A stretch of DNA of 64,000 bases, taken from Desulfonispora thiosulfatigenes DSM 11270. GTDB lineage: Bacteria; Bacillota; Peptococcia; Peptococcales; Desulfonisporaceae. The stretch lies in the NCBI RefSeq assembly GCF_900176035.1, contig NZ_FWWT01000020.1, forward strand, positions 1 through 64,000, given 5' to 3'. The notes beneath the pieces were generated by a model. The model was not told the DNA's origin. It was given only the letters and a program-made list of their open reading frames with translations, and made no database searches. Below are positions 600 through 28,293 of the stretch, in pieces (the first letter of the stretch is position 1; each line of letters opens with the position of its first letter). Made by a program: the position numbers and the translations under genes.

Positions 600-875
600 A
601 ATAAAATTAAAATTGTTATAGGCTATGATAAGGACAGTAATAAGAGGAAACTGCTTTTAGAGACATAATCATTTGGTGTAAGATTATGACAGTACCTTTT
701 ATGAAGATCACCTTGGAGCTAGGGATCTGAAATAATAGTAAGATCCTTCGTCTGAATACGTTACATTCGTCAAGTGATAAAATAGTAAGTTATGTTTTAA
801 AATTACTATTTTATAATAAGGGTGGTACCGCGGTTAATTCGTCCCTAAGTCTTTTGACTTAGGGCTTTTTTAATT
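600..875 (+). promoter_or_regulatory. T-box riboswitch leader of ileS (full length)
   Basis: The leader carries the 5' T-box consensus GATAAGGACAGTAATAAG (about 624-641), a long structured Stem I region, and the invariant T-box GGTGGTACCGCGG (821-833). It ends in a terminator with arms CCCTAAGTC and GACTTAGGG (843-864) followed by a T run. AGGG (819-822) can pair with CCCT (843-846) to make the competing antiterminator. Several ATC triplets (for example about 697, 724 and 743) could be the isoleucine specifier codon; I did not resolve which. Uncharged tRNA-Ile would stabilise the antiterminator and switch on ileS. Confidence 0.93.
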
Positions 876-25021: not shown

Positions 25022-25501
25022 TTGAAAAAGAAATATTATTATAAAAAAAATACTAAAGATAGATTAAACTTAAAAGGTTTGTGGCAAGGTATAGTTATTG
25101 CGGCTATAACCTTTATGGTAATCATGTTTATTGGGGTAGGAAGTGTTTTAGCTTTTGTTCCTGATAGCACTATATACTCCCTTCATGAAATACCAAAATT
25201 ATTTCTCTGGGTTGCCTTTTTTTTAAGTGGTTACATAGCAGCTTTAAAATCAGGTTATAAGGGATGGCAACATGGTTTAGCTGCTGGAATATCCCTTGGA
25301 ATAATATCTTTATTATTTATGATTGCAATTTTTCCTTTGAGCATGATATTAGAAGTAATGATTTTATATTTATTTGCATCGATTATTTTAGGTGTTTCAG
25401 GTGGAATAGTAGGATTAAGGTCGACAACTACTGTGAAAAAAACATATTCATTAACGGAATTTAAAAAACAAAGTTCAAAGCAACTTGACAGTCAAAGATA
25501 A
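25022..25501 (+). CDS. TIGR04086-type small membrane protein
   Basis: Protein of 159 residues with four hydrophobic helices. The pattern KGLWQGIVIAAITFMVIM, a central GYIAALKSGYKGWQHGLAAG and a final GVSGGIVGLRS fits the TIGR04086 family of Firmicutes membrane proteins of unknown function. The start is TTG with AAGAGGTGG upstream. The promoter for valS lies inside its last codons, so valS can be expressed independently. Confidence 0.75.
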   Translation: MKKKYYYKKNTKDRLNLKGLWQGIVIAAITFMVIMFIGVGSVLAFVPDSTIYSLHEIPKLFLWVAFFLSGYIAALKSGYKGWQHGLAAGISLGIISLLFMIAIFPLSMILEVMILYLFASIILGVSGGIVGLRSTTTVKKTYSLTEFKKQSSKQLDSQR

Positions 25502-25513
25502 TAAAGCTAATAT
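25485..25513 (+). promoter_or_regulatory. Promoter of the valS leader, inside the end of the preceding gene
   Basis: TTGACA (25485-25490) and TAATAT (25508-25513) are exactly 17 bases apart; the -35 is perfect consensus. Transcription would begin near 25520, giving a leader of only about 128 bases before valS. Confidence 0.75.
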
Positions 25514-25540
25514 TAAGGTAACTGAAAACTGTTAATTGCG

Positions 25541-25622
25541 TTGATGATGAGGAATAGTAAGGTGGTACCACGGAAGAATATACCTCTTTCGTCCTTAGAT
25601 AAGGATGAAAGAGGTTTTTTTA
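25541..25622 (+). promoter_or_regulatory. Short T-box-like leader of valS lacking Stem I
   Basis: TTGATGATGAGGAATAGTAA (25541-25560), which resembles the usual 5' start of a T-box leader, runs directly into the T-box GGTGGTACCACGG (25561-25573). The terminator CCTCTTTC/GAAAGAGG with inner TCCTTA/TAAGGA spans 25583-25614, followed by TTTTTTT. The antiterminator pairing TAAGG (25558-25562) with CCTTA (25593-25597) is possible. There is no room between the 5' consensus and the T-box for the Stem I that reads the codon, which in the ileS leader takes about 150 bases. I read this as an internal deletion. Confidence 0.8.
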
Positions 25623-25647
25623 TAATGATCGCAAGGAGGAAGAATTA

Positions 25648-28293
25648 ATGTCAGAGCAAAAGAATTTATCAAAAACGTACGATCCTAAAGTTGTAGAGGA
25701 AAAATGGTATCAACATTGGGAAAATAGCAATTATTTTAAAGCTGATGCAGATATAAATAAACCACATTTCTCAATTGTTATGCCTCCACCTAATGTAACA
25801 GGTATGCTTCATTTAGGACATGCTTTAGATAATACATTACAAGATATATTAACGCGTTATAAGAGGATGAGAGGGTTTAACACCCTTTGGTTACCAGGTA
25901 CTGATCATGCTGGAATAGCAACTCAAGCAAGAGTGGAGGCGCAGCTTAGCTCTGAGGGTACATCTAAAGATGAACTTGGACGAGAAAAGTTTATAGAAAA
26001 GGCATGGCAATGGAAAGAAGAATATGGTAGCACTATAACAAAGCAATTACGAAAACTAGGTACTTCTTGTGATTGGAGCAGAGAGAGATTTACTATGGAT
26101 GAGGGATGCTCTGAAGCTGTTAAAGAGGTATTTGTGCGATTATATAATAAAGGACTAATTTACCAAGGTAATTATATTGTAAACTGGTGTCCTCATTGTG
26201 AAACTACCATTTCAGATATTGAAGTAGAGCATGTTGATGAAGATGGTAAACTGTATTATATAAAATATCTTACAGAAGATGGTACGGATTTTCTTACTAT
26301 AGCAACTACTCGTCCTGAAACAATGTTTGGCGATACAGCGGTAGCAGTTCATCCAGAAGATACAAGATACGCTCATTTAATAGGAACTAATTTGGTTTTA
26401 CCTTTTGTGAATAAACCTATTCCGATAATTGCAGATACTTATGTGGAAAGTGAATTTGGAACAGGAGCAGTTAAAATAACACCAGCTCATGATCCTAATG
26501 ACTTTGAAATGGGTAAAAGACACAATCTTAGCGAAGTTGTTGTCATAGATTCAAAAGGTATTATGAATGATAATGCAGGTATGTTTTCTGGCATGGATAG
26601 ATATGAGTGCCGTAAAAAGGTAATTGAAGAATTAGAAAAACAAGGTCTACTAATAAAAGCAGATGATCATGGACATGCTGTTGGTCATTGTTATCGCTGC
26701 AGCACCGTTATTGAACCAAGAGTATCTAAACAATGGTTTGTAAAAATGCAGCCTTTAGCAGAACCAGCAATAAAGGTTGTAAAAGAAGGTAAGGTTAAAT
26801 TTGTACCTGAGAGATTTTCTAAAGTTTATCTTGATTGGTTAGATAATATTAGAGATTGGTGTATATCACGTCAATTATGGTGGGGTCATCGCATTCCAGT
26901 ATGGTATTGCCAGGATTGTGATGAATTAATTTGTACAAAAGATGAGCCTAAGGTTTGCCCAAAATGTGAATCTACTCATTTAGAACAAGATAAGGATGTT
27001 TTAGATACTTGGTTTAGTTCTGGTTTATGGCCATTTTCTACTTTGGGTTGGCCACAGGATACTAAAGATTTACAAAGGTATTATCCAACTAGTGTATTAG
27101 TAACTGGCAGAGACATTATTTTCTTTTGGGTAGCTAGAATGATTTTTACTTCTTTAGAATTTATGGGAGAAGTACCTTTTAAAGAAGTATTTATTCATGG
27201 ATTAGTGCTTGATGCAAAAGGAAGAAAAATGAGTAAATCTTTAGGAAATGGTGTTGACCCATTAGAGGTTATTGAGCAAAATGGAGCTGACGTTTTAAGA
27301 TTTATGCTTATTACCGGTAATACTCCTGGTAATGATATTCGCTTCCAGTTTGAAAGATTAGAATCGGCTCGTAACTTTGCTAATAAAATTTGGAATGCAA
27401 CTCGTTTTGTCTTAATGAACTTAGACGATTATGAAGAAGGTAAATTTACACCTGAATACAATATGTCAGACAAGTGGATTTTAAGCCGCTATAATTCTAC
27501 AATTAAAGATGTCACAAGATATCTAGAAAATTATGAACTTGGTGAAGCAGGAAGAAAATTATATGACTTTATTTGGAATGAATTTTGTGATTGGTATGTC
27601 GAATTAGCTAAAGCAAGGTTATATAATAAAGAAAATACTGCAGTGAGATATACCGCACAAAATGTTTTAGCAACTGTACTAAAAGGCACTATGGAGCTAT
27701 TGCATCCTGTAATGCCGTTTTTAACCGAAGAAATATGGCAGGTGTTACCGCATGAAGGTGAAACAATTATGCTTACTTCATGGCCAGAAGAAAATGAGGA
27801 TTTAATTAATTCCGAAATAGAAGAACAAATGAATTTAGCAATGGAAGTAATAAGAACTATCCGTAATTTAAGAAGTGAAGTTAATGTTCCCTTGGGTAAA
27901 AAGGCAGATTCTATTCTTATTACTCATAATGAAAAGTCGTTTAATATTTTAATGATGGCTAAAGAATATATTAAATCATTAGCAACTGTGGACAATTTAG
28001 AGATAGAAATTGAGATGAAAGATGAGCCTGAACAGTCTGTTTCTGCTGTAACTAAAGGGGTAGAAATATTTTTATCCTTAAAAGGCTTAGTCGATGTTGA
28101 AAAAGAAAAAGCACGTTTAAATAAAGAATTAGATAAAGTTAATAAAGAAATCGAGAGATTAGATAAAAAGTTATCTAACGAAGGATTTATCAGAAAAGCT
28201 CCAGCTGATGTAATTGAAAAAGAAAAAGAAAAATTAGTTTCGTATGGTGCAGATAAAGATGCTTTATTAGGTAGAATAAATAGTCTAGGTTAA
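25648..28293 (+). CDS. valS: Valyl-tRNA synthetase
   Basis: Cytoplasmic class I synthetase of 881 residues that charges tRNA-Val. The HIGH motif is HLGH at 55-58 after PPPNVTGM, and KMSKS is at 527-531 (GRKMSKSLGNGVDP). The editing domain (TTRPETMFGDTAVAVHP) discriminates against threonine. The last 65 residues form the coiled coil (EKARLNKELDKVNKEIERLD) typical of ValS that contacts the tRNA. ATG with GGAGGAAGAATT. Length is normal. Preceded by an unusual short T-box leader and followed by folC, a common clostridial order. Confidence 0.97.
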   Translation: MSEQKNLSKTYDPKVVEEKWYQHWENSNYFKADADINKPHFSIVMPPPNVTGMLHLGHALDNTLQDILTRYKRMRGFNTLWLPGTDHAGIATQARVEAQLSSEGTSKDELGREKFIEKAWQWKEEYGSTITKQLRKLGTSCDWSRERFTMDEGCSEAVKEVFVRLYNKGLIYQGNYIVNWCPHCETTISDIEVEHVDEDGKLYYIKYLTEDGTDFLTIATTRPETMFGDTAVAVHPEDTRYAHLIGTNLVLPFVNKPIPIIADTYVESEFGTGAVKITPAHDPNDFEMGKRHNLSEVVVIDSKGIMNDNAGMFSGMDRYECRKKVIEELEKQGLLIKADDHGHAVGHCYRCSTVIEPRVSKQWFVKMQPLAEPAIKVVKEGKVKFVPERFSKVYLDWLDNIRDWCISRQLWWGHRIPVWYCQDCDELICTKDEPKVCPKCESTHLEQDKDVLDTWFSSGLWPFSTLGWPQDTKDLQRYYPTSVLVTGRDIIFFWVARMIFTSLEFMGEVPFKEVFIHGLVLDAKGRKMSKSLGNGVDPLEVIEQNGADVLRFMLITGNTPGNDIRFQFERLESARNFANKIWNATRFVLMNLDDYEEGKFTPEYNMSDKWILSRYNSTIKDVTRYLENYELGEAGRKLYDFIWNEFCDWYVELAKARLYNKENTAVRYTAQNVLATVLKGTMELLHPVMPFLTEEIWQVLPHEGETIMLTSWPEENEDLINSEIEEQMNLAMEVIRTIRNLRSEVNVPLGKKADSILITHNEKSFNILMMAKEYIKSLATVDNLEIEIEMKDEPEQSVSAVTKGVEIFLSLKGLVDVEKEKARLNKELDKVNKEIERLDKKLSNEGFIRKAPADVIEKEKEKLVSYGADKDALLGRINSLG

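Follow-up and report, generated by a model that had tools for sequence, protein, structure and literature searches.

The leader of the valyl-tRNA synthetase gene (valS) of Desulfonispora thiosulfatigenes DSM 11270 raises the question of what becomes of a T-box that has lost Stem I. This domain has been called obligate for T-boxes (PMC7583486) and is present in all four described T-box classes (PMC10482949). In the window analyzed here, the whole stretch of 64,000 nucleotides at the start of contig NZ_FWWT01000020.1, the sole copy of valS in the genome is preceded by a T-box antiterminator and terminator, with Stem I reduced to its 5′ strand and no specifier left. A literature search for Stem I-less T-box leaders found no description of such an arrangement, an earlier mention in Vitreschak 2008 or Gutierrez-Preciado 2009 being possible.

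Anatomy of the valS leader

The promoter, the zero spacing between GATGAGGAATAGTAA and GGTGGTACCACGG, the TAAGG/CCTTA pairing and the terminator reported in the initial annotation are all present (Table 1). The leader RNA is predicted to start near 25520, and GATGAGGAATAGTAA (25546-25560) directly abuts the T-box core GGTGGTACCACGG (25561-25573), placing the core 77 nt from the -35 element, with Stem II, IIA/B and Stem III absent. The two-helix antiterminator nevertheless retains its UGGN bulge (here UGGU) and both of its helices intact, TAAGG (25558-25562) being able to pair with CCTTA (25593-25597), and a mutually exclusive terminator with a T run is present (one terminator found in the leader, against 0.3 +/- 0.6 in shuffled sequences). 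The conserved promoter lying 77 nt before the core, together with the end of the preceding open reading frame at 25501, rules out a hidden Stem I further upstream. The C-terminal end of this reading frame can be recognized by eye ahead of valS in three relatives (G006, G011 and G003).

Table 1. Features of the valS leader (positions in the window) and of two further leaders of the same genome (positions preceded by the contig label).
Feature	Position	Strand	Basis
Preceding small membrane-protein ORF, DUF3792-like	25022..25501	+	ORF list; Pfam E 7e-6, 26.6 bits, below cut-off 31.3
Promoter TTGACA-N17-TAATAT	25485..25513	+	TTGACA 25485-25490, TAATAT 25508-25513, spacing 17
Stem I 5′ strand remnant GATGATGAGGAATAGTAA	25543..25560	+	Comparable Stem I 5′ strands in relatives
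Probable deletion junction TAAGGT	25558..25563	+	Same six bases flank missing segment in G006; TAAGG in G003 Stem I 5′ strand
Intact T-box antiterminator	25557..25598	+	A2 TAAGG/CCTTA, bulge TGGTACC, A1 ACGGAAG/CTTTCGT
Intrinsic terminator, competing with antiterminator	25582..25622	+	15-pair stem (25582-25615) and T run
valS, valyl-tRNA synthetase	25648..28293	+	
pheS leader (L009)	C23:15738-15775	-	Extended -10 TGGTATAAT directly ahead of core; no Stem I; weakened terminator
MFS transporter leader (L011)	C16:79956-79996	-	TTGACA-N17-TACTAT, Stem I 5′ strand, short spacer, core; no full Stem I

Searched across the whole genome with R1, an antiterminator model built from the cores of 18 relatives, the valS antiterminator scores 39.3 bits (E 9e-8), as high as the intact T-boxes found there, and is therefore not a chance match. 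The Rfam T-box model (RF00230), a check proposed in the initial annotation, gives the leader 21.3 bits, far under its gathering cut-off of 93, because Stem I cannot be placed, and annotation at the Rfam cut-off hence misses it. Six of the seven intact leaders of the genome reach 105-140 bits with the same model and the remaining one 78, the ileS T-box of the window (616-849) scoring 133. The minimum free energy of the valS antiterminator is -10.1 kcal/mol and that of the fold with the terminator -25.7 kcal/mol. The resulting difference of -15.6 kcal/mol falls within the range of the relatives (-9.7 to -19.9), so that termination should be the default, and neither this value nor the R1 score reveals any decay of the antiterminator and terminator.

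The corresponding position in related genomes

All relatives of the same order with a readable valS leader have Stem I, Stem II, IIA/B and Stem III at exactly the point where these elements are absent in D. thiosulfatigenes, and RF00230 matches of about 100-139 bits lie ahead of valS in many of them. A similar promoter precedes Stem I in the relatives, its position being conserved, and their Stem I 5′ strands, such as GAGGAAGGGGAGGAGTAAGGT in G006 and GATGAAGAGGAAGAGTAA in G018, are comparable to the remnant in D. thiosulfatigenes. The distance from the -35 element to the core spans 217-300 nt in nine relatives and 407 nt in one, as opposed to 77 nt here, and approximately 140-220 nt are therefore missing. 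With AGAGA taken as a rapid indicator of Stem I, all 49 of the core-bearing valS leaders among the named genomes show the motif at the expected distance, and D. thiosulfatigenes is the only one without it among 29 such leaders from whole genomes, some genomes belonging to both sets. A search of relatives for a conserved Stem I-less valS leader found none. The internal deletion that the initial annotation had postulated, and for which it had called for a comparison with valS leaders of relatives, is thus well supported.

The boundaries of the missing segment point to a possible mechanism. In G006, TAAGGT occurs on both of its sides (AGTAAGGTCTATC ... AACTAAGGTGGTACC), and the junction in D. thiosulfatigenes reads AGTAAGGTGGTACC, which suggests, at the level of sequence, a deletion between short repeats in the valS leader.

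Recurrent loss of Stem I

The initial annotation overlooked that loss of Stem I recurs, both within this genome and elsewhere. R1 identifies 11 T-box cores in the D. thiosulfatigenes genome, for which gene names were taken from translations, and no further decayed cores at E < 0.5. Seven have a Stem I (ahead of a paaK-like gene, ileS, a cysE-like gene, an aminotransferase gene, tyrS, trpE and a TPP-enzyme gene). Of the remaining four, three, those of valS, pheS and an MFS transporter gene, lack it, with different breakpoints, and the fourth belongs to a partial tandem ahead of trpE, as its second unit. In the trpE leader (L006, C17:34165-34521, + strand), a second antiterminator/terminator, lacking a Stem I of its own, comes after a full T-box, and a partial tandem T-box resembling it is seen at a paaK-like gene in G013 (L163).

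The pheS leaders of relatives have a full Stem I, and G011 and D. thiosulfatigenes have the TATGGTATAATTTTT promoter in common. In D. thiosulfatigenes, the extended -10 adjoins the pheS core and the predicted RNA hence starts at the antiterminator. In the pheS core, T replaces a C that all other exact cores of the order keep, and the pheS terminator stem contains a mismatch, the energy difference between folds being only -4.4 kcal/mol, compared with -13.6 and -14.8 in relatives. The MFS core has an enlarged bulge and carries A in place of a G present in 70 of the 72 cores extracted. Homologues of the MFS gene in the order are distant (35-37% identity), making the history of its T-box unreadable. 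Core changes at near-invariant positions thus occur in two of the three Stem I-less leaders (Fisher p ~0.001-0.003, for a small sample and positions picked after looking) and, together with the weak pheS terminator, suggest relaxed constraint.

Beyond this genome, a phylum scan of 398 genomes for cores 3-33 nt downstream of a promoter -10 element yielded two clear Stem I-less leaders, ahead of metG and alaS (L207 and L208) in one unrelated genome (G201), and a class scan added one more, ahead of leuS in G030 (L228). In all three cases the genome lies outside the order and the core sits close behind the promoter. A scan with a gap of 34-64 nt returned only the valS leader of D. thiosulfatigenes and one match that reads as an ordinary T-box. 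The total hence amounts to six Stem I-less leaders in three genomes, an undercount, since the scans require both a near-consensus promoter and a core; for the same reason, co-retention of the core is in part a product of the search itself. None of these leaders is shared with another genus of the same family or order among the genomes searched. Among the other matches to the phylum pattern, three (L205, L206 and L214, the last judged by its matched sequence only) resemble ordinary T-boxes in which the promoter match arose by chance, and L203 is a chance match. The ilvD leader of G272 (L204) keeps a promoter and a T-box core without the antiterminator partner CGTCC, possibly as a later stage of decay.

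Fate of the leader and relation to known systems

The valS leader is likely to descend from a class I valine T-box that lost Stem I and now to act as a constitutive attenuator blind to tRNA. In this scenario, some 140-220 nt of an ordinary valine T-box would have disappeared, probably through deletion between short direct repeats (TAAGGT), and with them Stem II, IIA/B, Stem III and all of Stem I beyond its 5′ strand, while the promoter, antiterminator and terminator stayed behind. Without Stem I and Stem III, the leader should no longer recognize or stably bind tRNA, and, judging from its anatomy, a constant share of transcripts would pass the intrinsic terminator while the others end there, the proportion depending on how the antiterminator, which forms first, competes kinetically with the terminator, which is the more stable of the two. 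It would then be one of three leaders in this genome eroded by Stem I loss. This loss appears to be recent in valS, and decay to be further along in pheS and the MFS leader. The lack of sharing between genera among the genomes searched and the core changes in two of the three leaders point to relics. The undecayed valS antiterminator and terminator would, however, also fit a structure under selection, and the recurrence of the arrangement, with six leaders in three genomes, could hint at function. The antiterminator may, for instance, be kept because it raises basal read-through into valS.

A functional interpretation of the recurrence, in which repeated loss of Stem I has given rise to a selected minimal T-box with transcription starting at or near the antiterminator, is unlikely. 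Such a leader would either sense general tRNA undercharging or set read-through by the kinetics of antiterminator and terminator alone. Somewhat less likely is that valS and pheS respond to general undercharging as working, stripped-down sensors, in which any uncharged tRNA with a matching discriminator base would stabilize the antiterminator by itself through its free CCA end. The intact UGGU bulge and helices in valS and the same minimal layout at metG, alaS and leuS of other genomes are in keeping with this proposal, but Stem III has been lost together with its purines, the pheS and MFS cores have drifted in sequence, and no Stem I-less leader is common to different genera among the genomes searched. 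The initial annotation had left two outcomes for valS, a response to the acceptor end of any fitting tRNA and a plain terminator that lowers valS expression. The latter is now the better supported, and the former is disfavored because Stem III has been lost along with Stem I and the antiterminator without it has been reported not to bind tRNA appreciably (PMC7583486).

The presence of Stem I in all relatives and the six-base repeat flanking the segment in G006 would also be expected if the real valS leader had a Stem I and a hairpin between short repeats had been skipped in the library or assembly. This is improbable, since three leaders without Stem I, with three different breakpoints, stand beside seven whole T-boxes in the same genome; moreover, a normal assembly would not collapse over a repeat of only six bases, and comparable losses are seen in unrelated genomes. 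Least probable of all is a takeover of the antiterminator/terminator pair by another regulator, protein or small RNA, replacing control by Stem I. Although the two elements are kept together in all cases found, the search only finds cases that keep the core and their co-retention is thus partly a matter of ascertainment. Furthermore, no new element was seen to be common to the three Stem I-less leaders of this genome, and the predicted start in pheS is at the antiterminator itself.

With descent from a class I T-box and loss of tRNA recognition as the preferred explanation, Stem I-less leaders would illustrate one route of riboswitch loss, in which the aptamer goes first and the expression platform last. 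They also constitute natural deletion experiments, in which the action of the antiterminator on its own could be tested directly. The valS leader is accordingly a T-box derivative and not a T-box, because it keeps the expression platform but lacks Stem III and a complete Stem I, by which a T-box is defined. With class I transcriptional T-boxes (RF00230; B. subtilis tyrS type) it shares the promoter position, the Stem I 5′ strand, as a remnant, the UGGU bulge, the antiterminator and terminator, and an aminoacyl-tRNA synthetase target; unlike them, it lacks the specifier, most of Stem I, Stem II, the IIA/B pseudoknot and Stem III. Translational T-boxes with a short Stem I (class III, e.g., Nocardia farcinica ileS) likewise have a reduced 5′ domain, but in these the specifier loop and Stem II are retained and translation is the regulated step, whereas valS has no specifier and its output is a terminator. 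Partial tandem T-boxes, such as those of trpE and the paaK-like gene of G013, also include one antiterminator/terminator unit that has no Stem I of its own, yet a full T-box lies just upstream on the same transcript, and valS has none. Finally, a fixed share of transcripts would be expected to terminate in the valS leader as in a constitutive intrinsic attenuator, from which it differs in that a competing antiterminator, complete and of T-box origin, is present.
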